NCBI RefSeq assembly: GCF_037076525.1
Contig: NZ_AP029018.1
Span: 1,178,001 to 1,242,000 of the forward strand
From: Selenomonas sp. TAMA-11512
Lineage (GTDB): Bacteria; Bacillota; Negativicutes; Selenomonadales; Selenomonadaceae
DNA length: 64,000 nt
Direction of reading: 5' to 3'
In this document: piece by piece, positions 3,407 to 59,317 of the stretch
Layout of the letters: every line of letters begins with the position of its first letter
Position numbering within the stretch: the first letter of the stretch is position 1
Position numbers and translations under genes: made by a program
The notes under the pieces: generated by a model
What the model saw: the letters and a program-made list of their open reading frames with translations, nothing else
Told to the model about the DNA's origin: nothing
Databases searched by the model: none

Positions 3407-5566
3407 ATGCCGATTGAAAATGCAGCCGCTGCGGCAGGTTCGCTGCAGCCGATACGACAAACGCCCGCCTCGAATCAATCCGAGTCTGTCAGCCGTCGCG
3501 GTGATGGATCTGCGGCATCTCCTTTTGCCAAGGAAACGAATGTCAACATACGAAATTCCATCATTGATCTGTCGGCAGTACTGACCCGCTTATCGGAAAG
3601 TCAGGATGCATCTATAGATGAAATGCCGAAAAAGCTGCAGGAAGTCATCAAAAATATTATGGAGACGAGCTTTGCCTACAACCGCACGCTTGGAGAGGGC
3701 ATAGGAAGCACCGCGGAAAGCCAGCGGTTTTCCATGGAAGAGCTCAAAAGCCTCTCCCGTATGCTCACGCAGCTTGGGTCGATGGCAGAAAAGGGGACAT
3801 TTACAGGCAGCCTATCGGATGAGCTGTCCACGATTGTGCAGGGACTGAAGAAGTTCATGACTTCGGAGACGGGCGGAAGCCAATTAGAGCCTGTTTTATT
3901 GAATAAATTGGCATTTTCACTCCTCGTTGCAGAAGGCGAGGGAGGCAATCCGGCAGAAGCTTTGCCCGCACAGCTGATGGGGCTTCTGCTCGTTCTGTCC
4001 GGTGCAAACAGTGCTGCGCAGTCAAATGTGAATGAGTCTTCTTCGACGATGCTGAAGCAGCTCGTCAATTATTTCTTCCCACAGGCGGAGGTAGAGGGCG
4101 GGCAGGAGCAGCAGGCCATGCAGAGCCGCAATCCCACAGCACAAGAAAATCAGGGGCAATCGTCGGCAAATCGTGCTGTAAATACAGGGAACGAAGCACT
4201 CCTTGGACGGCAGGGAAGCGATTCAACGCAGAATGGAGTTCGCACGGCACAGGGGCAGCCTGCGTCCCAAGGACAGCCGGCATCCGCTCCGCAGCAGGCA
4301 GGGCTGCAGGGGCAGCCCGCGTCTCAAGGACAACCGGCATCCGCTCCGCAGCAGACAGGGCCGCAAGGGCAGTCAGCATCGCAGGGACAGCCGGCATCCG
4401 CTCCGCAGCAGACAGGGCCGCAAGGGCAGCCGGCGTCTCAGGGACAGCCGGCATCTGCACCGCAACAGGCAGGGCCGCAAGGACAAGCCGCGTCTCAGGG
4501 CCAGCAGGCATCCACTCCGCAGCAGGCAGGTCAAGGACAACCTACATCGCAAGGACAGCAGACATCTGCTCCGCAGCAGGCTGGGCCGCAGGGGCAAGCC
4601 TCGTCTCAAGGACAGCAGGCATCCGCTCCCCAGCAGGCAGGGCCGCAGGGGCAACCTGCATCGCAAGGACAGCAGACATCCGCTCCGCAGCAGGCAGGGC
4701 CACAGGGACAACCCGCATTGCAAGGACAGCAGGCATCCGCTCCACAGCAGGGGCAATCGATGCGTGGGACCGGCGCCGAAGGAGAAATGACACAGACCGC
4801 GAAGGCGGGGACACAGTTCTTGCCGCTGGAGAACAGTACACAGCTCATGCAGACGCTGCGTCAGACGGCAGGGTTTTTACTGAAGCACGGGAATCTCAGT
4901 CAGACAGAGCAGGAACAGCTGCAAAATTTTTTACTGAATAAGACCGGGTCACTGTCGAAAAAGGATGCCGGAGAGATGGAGCAGCTCCTCAAGCTCGTCC
5001 GTAATAATATTCCCGCTGCCGTATGGCAGACCGCCAATCGTCAGAATTTAAGCGAGCTGCCAAGACTTTGGGCGTTCATGCAGTTTGCCGATTTCTTATC
5101 GGCAAAGGATATGAAGGAAAGGCAGCTCAAACGGGCGGGAAGAGATCTTTCCGATTTCGTAACCTCGATGCGGCGATCCATGGAGGGCGAGAGCTTCATG
5201 CGCACCGACCGCGACGGAAGGGTGCAGCGATCAGTGGATTTCATGGTGCCGCTGTATTTGAGAGAGGGAGAAAAGCAATATCCGGCCTATATCAATGTGT
5301 ATAATGAATATCGCTCCTCGGCAGAGGATGGAACAATGCATAAGGAAACTTGGTTTCGACTGACTGTCTTGACACAGAATATCGGTACGGCAGAGATGGT
5401 CTTCCAGATCTATGACGATCATCAAGTCAACATGCAGCTGCTTTTTTCAGAGAGGTTCGTACGCGATGAATTTCAAGAGTATGTACCGGATATACGGGCC
5501 TCTTTCCGCGACCTTTCACTTGAGCTGGGAGAGCTCAAAATCGGCATAGCAGGTGATAGAGCATGA
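3407..5566 (+). CDS. FliK-like (YlqG-type) protein with 19-residue tandem repeats
   Basis: A 719-residue protein in the position of ylqG in the rbgA-rnhB-ylqG-ylqH order of Bacillus. The C-terminal part (about 600-719; VDFMVPLYLREG, WFRLTVLTQNIG, AEMVF) resembles the C-terminal hook-length-control domain of FliK. The N-terminal 230 residues are mainly helical. Between about residues 283 and 448 lie nine Gln/Pro/Ala/Ser repeats. There is no signal peptide or membrane segment. The stop overlaps the start of the FlhB-like gene (ATGA), so the pair is translationally coupled. FliK and the FlhB C-terminus work together in the flagellar export switch, which suggests this pair interacts too, but its role is unproven. 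Repeats make the central part low complexity. Confidence 0.7.
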   Translation: MPIENAAAAAGSLQPIRQTPASNQSESVSRRGDGSAASPFAKETNVNIRNSIIDLSAVLTRLSESQDASIDEMPKKLQEVIKNIMETSFAYNRTLGEGIGSTAESQRFSMEELKSLSRMLTQLGSMAEKGTFTGSLSDELSTIVQGLKKFMTSETGGSQLEPVLLNKLAFSLLVAEGEGGNPAEALPAQLMGLLLVLSGANSAAQSNVNESSSTMLKQLVNYFFPQAEVEGGQEQQAMQSRNPTAQENQGQSSANRAVNTGNEALLGRQGSDSTQNGVRTAQGQPASQGQPASAPQQAGLQGQPASQGQPASAPQQTGPQGQSASQGQPASAPQQTGPQGQPASQGQPASAPQQAGPQGQAASQGQQASTPQQAGQGQPTSQGQQTSAPQQAGPQGQASSQGQQASAPQQAGPQGQPASQGQQTSAPQQAGPQGQPALQGQQASAPQQGQSMRGTGAEGEMTQTAKAGTQFLPLENSTQLMQTLRQTAGFLLKHGNLSQTEQEQLQNFLLNKTGSLSKKDAGEMEQLLKLVRNNIPAAVWQTANRQNLSELPRLWAFMQFADFLSAKDMKERQLKRAGRDLSDFVTSMRRSMEGESFMRTDRDGRVQRSVDFMVPLYLREGEKQYPAYINVYNEYRSSAEDGTMHKETWFRLTVLTQNIGTAEMVFQIYDDHQVNMQLLFSERFVRDEFQEYVPDIRASFRDLSLELGELKIGIAGDRA
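4253..4750 (+). repeat. 57-bp in-frame tandem repeat, nine units
   Basis: Nine consecutive units encode variants of GQPASQGQPASAPQQAGPQ. Seven are exactly 19 codons, the fifth is 18 and the last is 15. Units differ at a few recurring positions (P/Q, A/T, A/S), so the array is diverged, not freshly expanded. Because the unit is a multiple of three and free of stops, long spurious reading frames appear in the other frames and on the other strand. Confidence 0.95.
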
Positions 5567-5886
5567 GTGGAAGAGACAGAGTACCGCCCGTTGAGCCGGA
5601 GACAGATCCCGGTGCGGATAAGAAGGCGGTCGCGTTAAAGTATACGCCGGGGGAGCAGGCTGCACCAAGAGTTGTCGCTAAAGGAAAGGGCTTTGTTGCT
5701 GAAAATATATTGGCAACTGCAAGAAAAAATTCCGTGCCGACATATCAGAACAAATCCTTGGTTAACATGCTGATGGCACTTGAGCTTGACCGTGAGATAC
5801 CACCGGAGCTCTATCGAACGATTGCTGAGATCATGGCTTATGTCTATCGTATTGATAAGCGTCACGAGACAGAGTCGAATCGATAA
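5563..5886 (+). CDS. FlhB C-terminal-domain homologue (FlhX/YlqH)
   Basis: A 107-residue protein matching only the cytoplasmic C-terminal domain of the flagellar/type III export switch FlhB (AVALKYTPGE, APRVVAKGKGFVAENI, EIPPELYRTIAEIMAYVYRID). It has no membrane segments and lacks the autocleaving NPTH motif, as in FlhX/YlqH. Such proteins can partly replace the cleaved FlhB domain in other bacteria, or act outside the flagellum. It overlaps the FliK-like gene by four bases (ATGA). The first ~30 residues are acidic and variable. Confidence 0.85.
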   Translation: MSGRDRVPPVEPETDPGADKKAVALKYTPGEQAAPRVVAKGKGFVAENILATARKNSVPTYQNKSLVNMLMALELDREIPPELYRTIAEIMAYVYRIDKRHETESNR

Positions 5887-54247: not shown

Positions 54248-55387
54248 ATGTTAAAACGGACATATTTGACGGAGTTAAAAGCGGGCATGGTGTTGGGACG
54301 TCCGATTTATAATGAGGATCTGACTGTTCTTTTTGAACAGGGAACCGTATTGACCGAGGAGCAAATTGTACAGATTTCCTGTATGGATTTACCTGCCGTT
54401 ACGATTTTGCTGCCGGATCCTATACAATCGGAGCAGTTGTCGCCACCAAAGCCTGTTCTTCAAAAGTCAACTTTAATAGAGGTCGGTTTTTTGAAGAATT
54501 ATCAGGACAGTTTTTTTCTTCTGCGCGATTTGTATGAACATGCAAGAGAAAATCGAAAAATCGATGTTTCAATTGCAGAACAAGTCGTTGCTTCCATATC
54601 TCCACTGATTAAAACGGCTGCGAAGGCAATTGCGCAAATTCACAGTATGTCCATGGATGGTGATTATCGGCTGCATCATACGCTGCATGTCGCTATTTTA
54701 GCAGGACTGATGGGGAAATGGCTTCGGATGAAAAAACCTCGCAGACGGAGACTGCTGCTCGCGGCTATCTTTATGGATATTGGGAACCAGCGGCTGTCAC
54801 CGGCACTCTTTGCAAAGAAAGGTGTGATGAGCAACGAGGAGCGTAATCTCATGCGGCGTCATGTGCAGTTTGGCTATGAGATGGTTATGGCCTCCCCGTT
54901 CGGACAGGAACCGGAGATTGCTGACGCGGTTTTGCAGAGCCATGAACGCAATGACCGTTCCGGCTACCCCAAAGGGTTAAAAGGTGAGCAGATCTGTGAT
55001 TTTGCAAAAATCCTTGCAATACTTGACATTTATGATGCGATGGGATCAAATCATTCGCATATCAAAAAACATTCTCCATACGAAATATTTAATATGCTTT
55101 ATATGAATATACAGGGCGGACAGATTGACATGAACTTCGGGGTTCCGTTTATTCGACATGTCAGTCAGTCTTTGCATGAAACATGGGTAATGCTTTCCAG
55201 CGGTGAAAAAGCCAAAATCGTCTATATTGACGAAACACGAGTGCTATCTCTTCCCGTTGTGCAGACTGCCGGCGGTGAGTTTTTGGATCTGAATCGGCAA
55301 AGCAATATAAAGGTTGAACACCTGCTTACGAATAAGGATTTGGATCAGGATGATGACGGCGAAGAAAGCGTTGGATTTGGATTATAA
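54248..55387 (+). CDS. HD-GYP-type signalling protein with degenerate HD motif (copy 1)
   Basis: A 379-residue protein with an N-terminal domain (TYLTELKAGMVLGRPIYNEDLTVL, about 1-60) and an HD-GYP-like C-terminal domain. The usual HDIGK is MDIGN (FMDIGNQRLSP), so the His of the HD dyad is Met. It keeps the HHTLHVA His, the HVQFGYE His, QSHERND..GYP and LDIYDAM. Cyclic-di-GMP phosphodiesterase activity is therefore doubtful; a binding role is possible. AGAGGATA precedes the ATG. A second paralogue follows 34 bp downstream. Confidence 0.85.
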   Translation: MLKRTYLTELKAGMVLGRPIYNEDLTVLFEQGTVLTEEQIVQISCMDLPAVTILLPDPIQSEQLSPPKPVLQKSTLIEVGFLKNYQDSFFLLRDLYEHARENRKIDVSIAEQVVASISPLIKTAAKAIAQIHSMSMDGDYRLHHTLHVAILAGLMGKWLRMKKPRRRRLLLAAIFMDIGNQRLSPALFAKKGVMSNEERNLMRRHVQFGYEMVMASPFGQEPEIADAVLQSHERNDRSGYPKGLKGEQICDFAKILAILDIYDAMGSNHSHIKKHSPYEIFNMLYMNIQGGQIDMNFGVPFIRHVSQSLHETWVMLSSGEKAKIVYIDETRVLSLPVVQTAGGEFLDLNRQSNIKVEHLLTNKDLDQDDDGEESVGFGL

Positions 55388-55421: not shown

Positions 55422-56579
55422 ATGTTGAAGAGAACGCCTGTAGGGGACCTGCTGGAAGGGATGGTGCTGGGCCGTCCGATATACAAGGAGGATATGTCGA
55501 CGCTTCTGAGTGATGGAACCGCATTGACATCAGATCACATAGATGCGATTCGTGCGATCGGTATGCCGGCTGTATATGTTATCGTGGAGGATGATGTCGA
55601 TACTGCTTCTGTTTCAGACGAAGCGGCAAAGCATCCTGCGGGTGAGGCAAATGTTGCCCATACGGCATCGATCGACTATGATGCCAAGGCGATTCCGGAG
55701 AAGACGCAAATCTTGGATCAAGGATTTGTCAAGGAGTATAACGACTGTCTTGATAAACTTGAGATTGTCTATGAACAGGCCAAGTCCGGTCTTATTGATC
55801 CGGTTATGGCCGAGCAGCTGGCTTCTGCTGTTATGCGGCTTTCCAAAGGAGCGAAAGCCGTTTCACATATACATAACCTCGAAGTAAAAGGTGACTATAT
55901 TTTGCATCATAGTCTGCATGTCGCTATTCTTGCAGGATTGATGGGGAAATGGCTGCGCATGTCAAAACGCCGGCAGCGAGAGTTCATTATCGCCGCGCTT
56001 TTTATGGACCTTGGGAATATTCGATTATCGCCAACGCTTTTGAATAAATCGGGTCGACTCACGCCGGAGGAGCGAAAACTCATGCAGCGGCATGTTGAAT
56101 TGGGATATGAGATTGTAAGGGCTTCTGCTCTCGGAGAGAATGAAGATATTGCCAATGCTGTTTTACAGCATCATGAGAGAAATGACGGGACAGGCTATCC
56201 GAACGGTATTTCTAAAGAGCAGATTTCAGAATTTGCCCGTATTCTTGCGCTGTTGGATATGTATGATGCCATGGGCTCGAATCGAGTATACGCAAATAAG
56301 AAATCTCCCTTTGAAGTTTTTGATATTATGTCGAATGATATTACAAACGGCAAACTGGATACCGATTTCGGCTTCCAATTCATTCGTCGGGTGTGTCACT
56401 CTCTTCATGGCAACTGGGTGCAGCTGTCGAATGGAGAAAAGGCGAAGATCGTCTATATGGATGAATCGCGTCTATTCTCACTGCCTGTTGTTCAGACGAT
56501 GGAAGGAGAGTTCATCGATTTGAATCGTCAAGCGGATATAAAGATAAACCATCTCTTGACGAGTACGGAATTGGGATAA
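55422..56579 (+). CDS. HD-GYP-type signalling protein with degenerate HD motif (copy 2)
   Basis: A 385-residue tandem paralogue of the preceding gene with the same N-terminal (GMVLGRPIYKEDM) and HD-GYP layout. The HD dyad is again altered (FMDLGNIRLSP), while HHSLHVA, HVELGYE, QHHERNDGTGYP and LDMYDAMGSN are retained. The HHE and GYP parts are closer to consensus than in copy 1. The pair came from a tandem duplication. GAGG precedes the ATG. Confidence 0.85.
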   Translation: MLKRTPVGDLLEGMVLGRPIYKEDMSTLLSDGTALTSDHIDAIRAIGMPAVYVIVEDDVDTASVSDEAAKHPAGEANVAHTASIDYDAKAIPEKTQILDQGFVKEYNDCLDKLEIVYEQAKSGLIDPVMAEQLASAVMRLSKGAKAVSHIHNLEVKGDYILHHSLHVAILAGLMGKWLRMSKRRQREFIIAALFMDLGNIRLSPTLLNKSGRLTPEERKLMQRHVELGYEIVRASALGENEDIANAVLQHHERNDGTGYPNGISKEQISEFARILALLDMYDAMGSNRVYANKKSPFEVFDIMSNDITNGKLDTDFGFQFIRRVCHSLHGNWVQLSNGEKAKIVYMDESRLFSLPVVQTMEGEFIDLNRQADIKINHLLTSTELG

Positions 56580-56634
56580 ATGATAGATGGAGTCGTTACG
56601 CAGATGTTTTTGCGTTCGGCTCTATTTTTTAGAT

Positions 56635-56677
56635 AAAAGTCAAAAAGTCAAAAATACTATTTGACTTTTTGACTTTT
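56635..56677 (+). promoter_or_regulatory. 43-bp palindromic operator over the clpB promoter
   Basis: A perfect 18-bp inverted repeat (56635-56652 and 56660-56677, 7-bp spacer), each arm made of two AAGTCAAA units in direct repeat with an 8-bp period. It resembles doubled CtsR-type half sites (RGTCAAA), but with a different spacing from the usual CtsR box. The right arm overlaps the -35 box of the promoter. Confidence 0.85.
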
Positions 56678-56688
56678 ATGCGTATAAT
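56661..56688 (+). promoter_or_regulatory. clpB promoter
   Basis: TTGACT (56661-56666) and a perfect TATAAT (56683-56688) with a 16-base spacer, overlapped by the palindrome. Confidence 0.8.
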
Positions 56689-56746
56689 AGAAATTGTAAG
56701 AACAAAACACGCAGAAAATATTCTGCTGTACATGGAGGATAAGAAC

Positions 56747-59317
56747 ATGGCTGAGGAAAGATATACACAGAAGACGATGGCTGCATTGCAGACGGCACAG
56801 CAAATTGCCGCTATGCGCTACCATCAGCAGATTACATCCATGCATGCTTTTTTGGCATTAGTTCAGGAGCCGGAGGGGCTCTTGGAGACGATTTTTGCAG
56901 ATTGCGGTACAGATCTTCCGCTTTTAAAGACTCGTTTAGAGCAGGAATTGGCAAAGATCCCCAGCGTCAAGGGGCAGGAGCGCCTTTCTATGGGCATGGA
57001 TATGGTTCGCGTCTTGGGGCGTGCCGAGGAATATGCTAAAAGCATGAAGGATGATTATATCAGCACAGAGCACCTTCTCTTGGGATTGGCGGTCGACGGA
57101 AGTGAAGAGGTGCAGCGCATTGCCAAGGAATATGGCCTGACAAAAGCGTCGATTATGGATTCCGTGAAGAAAAATCGGAAGCAGAATGTTACAAGTGAAA
57201 ATCCGGAGGAAGGCTATCAGTCTCTGGAGAAGTTCGGCCGTGATTTAACGATGGCCGCTCGCAAGGGTAAGATTGATCCTGTGATTGGACGGGATGAAGA
57301 GATCCGCCGCACGATAGAGATTTTATCGCGCCGTACAAAGAACAATCCTGTGCTCATCGGTGAGCCGGGGGTTGGTAAGACGGCTATCGTAGAGGGGCTG
57401 GCCCGACGCATTGTGGCGGGGGATGTTCCGGAGTCATTGAAGAATAAGACGCTCTACTCTTTGGATATGGGCGCTCTTGTGGCAGGTGCCAAATTCCGGG
57501 GCGAGTTTGAGGAGAGATTAAAGGCTGTATTGAACGAAGTTGCAAAGTCGGACGGGCAGATTTTGCTCTTCATTGATGAAGTGCATACCGTGGTTGGCGC
57601 CGGTGCAGCTGAAGGTGCCATGGATGCGGGGAACCTGCTGAAGCCGATGCTGGCACGCGGCGAGCTGCGCTGCATTGGTGCAACGACGCTCAATGAATAC
57701 CGCAAGTACATCGAGAAGGACACGGCCTTAGAGAGACGTTTCCAGCCCGTGATGGTGGGAGAGCCCAGTGTGGAAGATACCATTTCTATTTTACGTGGTA
57801 TCAAGGAGCGCTATGAAGTGCATCATGGCGTGCGCATCCGCGATAATGCCCTGATTGCGGCGGCGACACTCTCCGATCGATATATTTCGGATCGATTTTT
57901 ACCGGATAAGGCGATTGATCTCGTCGATGAAGCGGCGGCAAAGCTTCGCACGGAGATTGAGTCCATGCCGGCACCTCTGGATGAAGTCCGCCGCAGACTC
58001 ATGCAGCTGGAGATAGAGGAACAGGCGCTGAAAAAGGAAAACGATGCGGCATCAAAAGAAAAGCTCGAAAAGCTCATCGAAGAAAAAGAGAACCTGCAAA
58101 AAGAGGAAAAAGATCTGAAGGACAAATGGGAAGGCGAGAAACAAGCTATCCTGCGCGTTCGTGCTGTCAAAAAGGAGTTGGATCAGGTCAAGAGTGAAAT
58201 GGAGAGTGCCGAGCGCGACTATGATCTCAATCGTCTTTCGGAACTTCGTTACGGCAAGCTGCCCGCATTGGAAAAGCAGCTTGCGGATGAAGAGTCCGCC
58301 ATTGCCAAACACGCAAAGGATAATCAGCTTTTAAAGGAAGAAGTGGAGGAGGAGGATATTGCGAAGGTGGTGAGCCGTTGGACAGGAATCCCGGTAGCAA
58401 AGATGCTCACCGGCGAGCGCGAAAAGCTTCTGCACCTGGAGGATGTCCTGCATACTCGTGTCGTCGGGCAGGAGGAAGCTGTTCGTGTAGTCAGTGAGGC
58501 CATCCTGCGTGCCCGTGCAGGGATAAAGGATCCGAATCGACCGATCGGTTCCTTTATCTTCCTGGGGCCAACCGGTGTTGGTAAGACGGAGCTGGCGAAG
58601 GCATTGGCGGAAGCTCTCTTTGATGATGAGCGCAGCATGATTCGCATGGATATGAGTGAATACATGGAAAAGCACTCCGTGGCTCGTCTCATCGGTGCGC
58701 CTCCCGGCTACGTCGGCTATGATGAGGGAGGGCAGCTTACAGAAGCCGTGAGGCGGCACCCCTATAGCGTGATTTTGCTTGACGAGATAGAGAAAGCGCA
58801 TAGAGATGTCTTTAATGTCCTTCTGCAGATACTGGATGACGGGCGCCTGACGGACGGCAAGGGACGCGTGGTCAACTTCAAGAATACCGTCATCATCATG
58901 ACAAGCAATCTCGGCTCTCATGAAATTCTCAATAAGAGCTTTGATGAGGCAGAGGGAGCGGTCAAGGAAATTCTGAAGGATTACTTCCGTCCCGAGTTTC
59001 TTAATCGCGTGGATGACATTATTGTCTTCAAGGGATTAACACAGGAAGAGGTCAAGAAAATTGCCGTTATCCTGCTTGAAAATCTGTCAAAACGCCTGGA
59101 AAAGCAGATCAAAGTATCGCTTCGCTGGACGGATGCCGCGATTGAGCAATTGAGCCGTGAAGGCTTTGATCCGAACTTCGGCGCGCGTCCGCTGCGCAGG
59201 ATGCTCACACACACTGTCGAGACGGCGCTGTCAAAGGAAATTATTGCAGGGCATGTCAAGGAAGGTGATACGGTAGAGATTGATGTGATGGATGGTGTAT
59301 TTACTTTTCGCACCTGA
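56747..59317 (+). CDS. clpB: ATP-dependent disaggregase ClpB
   Basis: Hexameric AAA+ chaperone that rescues aggregated protein with DnaK. The 856 residues show the N-terminal Clp domain, first ATPase (GEPGVGKTA near nt 57361), coiled-coil middle domain (about 410-530), second ATPase (GPTGVGKTE near nt 58567) and no ClpP-binding loop, which separates it from ClpC/ClpA. The ATG at 56747 has GGAGG eight bases upstream; earlier in-frame ATG codons lie in the promoter leader. Expression is predicted to be repressed through the upstream palindrome. Confidence 0.97.

Follow-up and report, generated by a model that had tools for sequence, protein, structure and literature searches.

The clpB locus

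The window (the whole 64-kb stretch of DNA that was analysed) carries a gene for the disaggregase ClpB, supported by Pfam and by a TIGR03346 match over its cut-off, and the product shares 83% identity with ClpB of Selenomonas ruminantium. The -35 and -10 boxes of its promoter match the consensus at 11 of 12 positions, and its ribosome-binding site was read from the sequence (Table 1). Just 5' of clpB are two adjacent and similar HD-domain (HD-GYP-like) genes, which apparently arose by tandem duplication. Some Negativicutes (families f25, f28, f35 and f3) gave no match to ClpB above the curated cut-off, and clpB may have been lost from these families.

Over the promoter lies a 47-bp palindrome: two arms of 20 bp, each the perfect complement of the other, flank a non-symmetric centre of 7 nt. 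A sequence-only reading of this DNA had described a 43-bp perfect inverted repeat; the inverted repeat is real, but it is longer than stated and its perfection belongs to the arms. The same reading correctly saw two GTCAAA units per arm at an 8-bp period, with direct and inverted repetition combined, and an overlap with the -35 box of a strong clpB promoter. Each arm is a tandem direct repeat, and the heptad RGTCAAA is present in four exact copies. Since the right arm overlaps the -35 box, some of the TTGAC in it owes its conservation to the promoter. Positions 56580-56747, upstream of clpB, hold no CIRCE element (TTAGCACTC-N9-GAGTGCTAA) by reading.

Table 1. Features of the clpB upstream region, in positions of the window
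Feature	Position	Strand	Remarks
HD-domain gene (HD-GYP-like)	54248-55387		first of two similar genes
HD-domain gene (HD-GYP-like)	55422-56579		second of two similar genes
Left operator arm (putative)	56633-56652	+	ATAAAAGTCAAAAAGTCAAA; GTCAAA at 56639-56644 and 56647-56652, period 8
Centre	56653-56659	.	AATACTA; separates the two arms
Right operator arm (putative)	56660-56679	-	TTTGACTTTTTGACTTTTAT; TTTGAC at 56660-56665 and 56668-56673, period 8; overlaps -35
-35 box	56661-56666	+	TTGACT; within right arm, from its inner unit
-10 box	56683-56688	+	TATAAT; 16 bp beyond -35
Ribosome-binding site	56734-56739	+	GGAGGA
clpB	56747-59317	+	disaggregase, 856 aa; ATG at 56747

Conservation among the Negativicutes

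A search for the doubled arrangement, which required a GTCAAA pair at period 8, a gap of 3-18 bp and a TTTGAC pair at period 8, found it at one place in its own genome and in 19 of 300 Negativicutes genomes, belonging to 10 genera, with no match for the reversed control. By these counts, and by a single-strand folding z of -8.5, the palindrome goes far beyond what chance would give. All 19 copies stand directly upstream of clpB. The search pattern itself fixes their heptads; between these the bases are almost constant (AA, sometimes AG), and the left flanks hold little information. Although any gap from 3 to 18 bp was allowed, the centre measures 5, 6 or 7 bp in 17 of the 19; in the remaining two, scored at 15 bp, the right arm is tripled, and putting it in register leaves a centre of 7 bp. 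The spacer between -35 and -10 is 16 bp in 15 of the 19 genomes.

When 70 clpB upstream regions were inspected under relaxed criteria, 30 of them had period-8 pairs on the forward strand and 32 had them on the reverse strand. The doubled inverted form is largely limited to the Selenomonadaceae, with single pairs or none in other families. Two clpB upstream regions from one other Negativicutes family (L437 and L447) combine 10- and 8-bp periods, so that some variation in spacing may be tolerated.

The gene that precedes the palindrome varies in kind and strand among genomes, and is divergent in some, so the element belongs to clpB. This bears on the proposal that the palindrome is mainly a hairpin, acting either in RNA as a terminator for the HD-domain gene upstream or in DNA as a cruciform; the folding score and a predicted 20-bp RNA stem of -28.2 kcal/mol speak for it. 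The terminator or hairpin reading was rejected on the variable upstream gene, the lack of a U-tract after the palindrome and a terminator scan that made no call. The palindrome also spans the -35 box and lies 5' of the clpB start site, and versions with a single arm and no palindrome stand before ctsR and, in other families, before clpB, which makes a hairpin role highly improbable.

A small predicted heat-shock regulon

The standard repressor of class III heat-shock genes in the Firmicutes is CtsR. The whole genome (one contig, 2.59 Mb) was scanned by pattern search with GTCAAAAAGTCAAA, and with at most one mismatch this pattern occurs at six places, all six before heat-shock genes: at both arms of clpB, in the ctsR promoter, and before hsp20, hrcA-grpE-dnaK (where dnaK is a putative assignment, based on the order of the genes and an incomplete reading frame) and groES-groEL. 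When matches with two mismatches are included the total is 34, against 13 for a control pattern, and the two-mismatch matches are mostly intragenic. The copy at hsp20 is a triple tandem array of GTCAAA type (GTCAAAAAGTCAATATGTCAAA, at about 2437-2458 of L033), with the hsp20 gene on the opposite strand, and that at hrcA-grpE-dnaK has an inverted arrangement. By reading, the promoters of hrcA-grpE-dnaK and groES-groEL (L034 and L035) carry CIRCE as well as the CtsR-like sites, with CIRCE some 25-50 bp further downstream. In the Selenomonadaceae, the family of the window, hrcA and groES likewise have CtsR-like sites; none of 30 promoters of hrcA examined in distant Negativicutes families had period-8 sites, only CIRCE.

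Because the copies with no or one mismatch all precede heat-shock genes, ctsR among them, clpB is one member of a small regulon, and the gene of the repressor is another. The suggestion of the sequence-only reading that clpB has private heat-shock control falls with this. As that reading had observed, no similar site was found before tig, clpP/clpX or lon in this genome. The canonical pair at a 10-bp period has no exact match in the genome, only background.

Operator spacing across the phylum

To our knowledge, a single operator spacing has been published for CtsR. The consensus is A/GGTCAAA NAN A/GGTCAAA (PMC12634643), and the spacing of the ctsR operator itself was compared with it in a census of the 200 bp upstream of ctsR in 66 non-redundant Negativicutes and 67 representatives of the phylum's other classes, where a pair was counted with at most one mismatch, in one of its units. 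Period 8 was present in 57 of the 66 Negativicutes promoters versus 3 of the 67 others (Fisher p = 5e-24, shared ancestry uncorrected), and period 10 in 6 of 66 versus 38 of 67 (p = 3e-9, likewise uncorrected). The Negativicutes consensus, GTCAAAaaGTCAAAtataat, overlaps the -10 box; that of the other classes, GTCAAA[g/t]a[a/t]aGTCAAA, has the published spacing. Three named clpB promoters of Bacillaceae (L188, L189 and L203) served as a positive control for the method and show period 10. Among the matches listed in a genome-wide spectrum of exact pairs, period 8 (with an AA spacer) is the commonest in Negativicutes and period 10 in the second class; this spectrum is diluted by chance matches in coding sequence, and the ctsR-promoter census is preferred to it.

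It might be argued that the 8-bp period is a coincidence driven by the promoter, with its -35 TTGAC and AT-rich spacers, and has no meaning for a repressor, and the -35 box does lie inside the right arm at clpB. At ctsR, however, the pair sits at -10 rather than -35 and still has period 8, other classes show period 10 in the same promoter region, and shuffling leads one to expect less than 0.5 for each period, so that coincidence has only a minute chance of being the explanation. The best reading of the census is that the 8-bp period is a class-wide trait of what appear to be CtsR operators in Negativicutes.

Some promoters depart from a simple pair. Upstream of clpB in Granulicatella elegans (Bacilli, L235) GTCAAA units occur at both 8- and 10-bp periods. 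Where ctsR promoters have a third unit (L117-L146 and L047-L116), the arrangement 10+6 is frequent in other classes, and 7+8 triples are seen in Negativicutes.

The CtsR protein and its gene neighbourhood

The genome has a single ctsR, which lies outside the 64-kb window; with the palindrome also present before clpB in relatives, the two absences that the sequence-only reading had said would refute it, of a ctsR-like gene and of conservation, do not apply. Across the class, CtsR (PF05848) was detected in 243 of 250 genomes, and in 196 of the 197 of good quality. The N-terminal winged helix-turn-helix domain of the protein encoded here scores 105.5 bits against PF05848 (cut-off 23.1), and this domain is over the cut-off in all sampled members. 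A profile of Negativicutes CtsR matches the solved CtsR structure 3H0D over its length (8.7e-40), and the Negativicutes proteins align end to end with those of other classes.

Within this common frame, an alignment of 65 Negativicutes proteins with 67 from other classes shows several class-specific changes. The tetraglycine thermosensor loop, RGGGGY, has become RG[S/L/A/T]GG[F/Y] (RGLGGF in this genome): its second glycine is replaced in 65 of 65 Negativicutes (Ser 32, Leu 28, Ala 4, Thr 1) and retained in 67 of 67 others. In the recognition helix PSQINYV has become PSQISYV, with serine in 64 of 65 Negativicutes versus 0 of 67 others. Negativicutes lack two residues in the linker that joins the DNA-binding domain to the C-terminal one, and about four more in the C-terminal half. 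The dimerisation domain PF17727 was detected in 14 of 26 Negativicutes versus 26 of 26 others sampled, and scores 19.9 bits in the protein of this genome, against a cut-off of 23.8. A shorter linker and an altered dimer domain would be expected if the two DNA-binding heads sit closer together. The link between these protein changes and the 8-bp period comes from a single contrast at class level, which may represent one evolutionary event.

The replaced glycine is G65 of Bacillus subtilis in the numbering of PMC12634643. The glycine loop has been reviewed as conserved among all Gram-positive homologues (PMC5506225), and in a B. subtilis mutant carrying G65S heat inactivation is reported to be suppressed (PMC6305308). 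About half of Negativicutes CtsR proteins have exactly serine at the equivalent position.

The period-8 element precedes ctsR-mcsA-mcsB-clpC in most Negativicutes examined, and in most of those with enough downstream sequence ctsR is followed by genes whose size and sequence fit mcsA, mcsB and clpC. McsB is the CtsR kinase and the usual inactivator of CtsR. In the genome studied here the ctsR-mcsA-mcsB-clpC operon arrangement was not found; ctsR is followed directly by radA (5355-5810 and 3834-5210 of L032, both on the reverse strand). McsB (PF00217) is present in 34 of 40 Negativicutes genomes and absent from the whole of this one, from which the usual CtsR-inactivating kinase is therefore missing. 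In three other neighbourhoods (L101, L106 and L109) a single gene of about 900 aa, whose product starts MLCQKCGLKEAV or similar, stands 3' of ctsR in place of mcsA-mcsB-clpC, and possibly encodes a ClpE-like protein with an N-terminal zinc finger.

These findings also bear on which repressor reads the element. That some winged-helix repressor other than CtsR does so is suggested by the misfit of period 8 to the published CtsR consensus (PMC12634643). Against this, the heptad is that of CtsR, the element stands in the promoter of ctsR itself and before ctsR-mcsA-mcsB-clpC across the class, the genome has no exact period-10 site, and CtsR has changed in the same class; a different repressor is, in our judgement, improbable. 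The sequence-only reading had offered a CtsR variant as one option, and this idea is supported; the shorter period and the joining of direct with inverted repetition that it saw are genuine.

A proposed mode of regulation

We consider the clpB element to be, with a probability of about 0.82, an operator of the CtsR regulon with a non-textbook geometry, an 8-bp variant found class-wide; binding by CtsR is inferred here from sequence comparison. The 10-bp spacing was looked for and not found, and the element is therefore placed as a variant and not as a classical CtsR operator. It very likely works like the classical operator.

Negativicutes CtsR would read the usual RGTCAAA heptad as direct repeats with one base between the heptads, where the textbook operator has three. 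One CtsR dimer would bind each direct pair, giving two dimers at clpB, one per arm; the sequence-only reading had likewise offered two dimers, which is plausible. The promoter-side dimer would cover the -35 box of clpB and block RNA polymerase, and the second, upstream dimer would add occupancy and cooperativity; the narrow centre of 5-7 bp suggests contact or cooperativity between the two. The same confinement of the centre could point to a CtsR tetramer, or to a dimer that spans the inverted inner units, with contact across the centre. We think this arrangement unlikely, though it deserves some weight: the promoters of ctsR, and of clpB outside the Selenomonadaceae, have direct pairs only, and a centre whose length shifts by single bases is looser than one would expect of a rigid complex.

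At the ctsR promoter the -10 box is covered by a single pair. Heat would lower the affinity of CtsR, and clpB would then be expressed together with ctsR, hsp20, dnaK and groE, of which the dnaK and groE operons would be additionally subject to HrcA through CIRCE. A wider proposal, to which we would give slightly less than an even chance, is that CtsR has been re-engineered in Negativicutes: its operator pitch would be 2 bp shorter, matching the shorter linker and diverged dimer domain, and its thermosensor loop would have lost the G65-type glycine. In the lineage of the window, where McsB is absent, this CtsR would work without it, and heat would have to be sensed and repression relieved along a different route.

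No description of an 8-bp CtsR operator was found in open-access papers, with most subscription journals and RegPrecise lying outside this coverage, and no open-access paper was found that treats CtsR together with Negativicutes or Selenomonas; a Veillonella parvula paper reports only slight up-regulation of stress genes, ctsR included. A class in which both spacing and loop have changed is a natural experiment in how a winged-helix dimer sets the pitch of its operator and in whether the glycine loop truly is the thermometer. In Negativicutes such as Selenomonas, Megasphaera, Propionispira and their relatives, a large part of the CtsR regulon will escape motif searches built on the 10-bp consensus.

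Comparison with known systems

The closest known system is the class III CtsR operator of B. subtilis, which shares with the element described here the heptad, the tandem direct repeat, the overlap with -35 or -10, the ctsR, clp and chaperone genes, and autoregulation. It differs in its period of 10, against 8 here; at clpB the pair described here is in addition doubled, with the second copy inverted across a centre of 5-7 bp. The repressor likewise has the winged-helix domain and full-length profile match of known CtsR (PF05848/PF17727; PDB 3H0D), but departs from it in the changed loop, the asparagine to serine change in the recognition helix, the shorter linker and, in this genome, a PF17727 score below the cut-off. 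For a CtsR that is kept without the McsA/McsB inactivation pair there is a known precedent in Oenococcus oeni (PMC6305308), although that organism is a Gram-positive lactic acid bacterium. The class I system of CIRCE and HrcA also uses an inverted repeat at chaperone genes, and at hrcA and groES it accompanies the CtsR-like sites; it differs in the sequence of its repeat and in having no copy upstream of clpB here.
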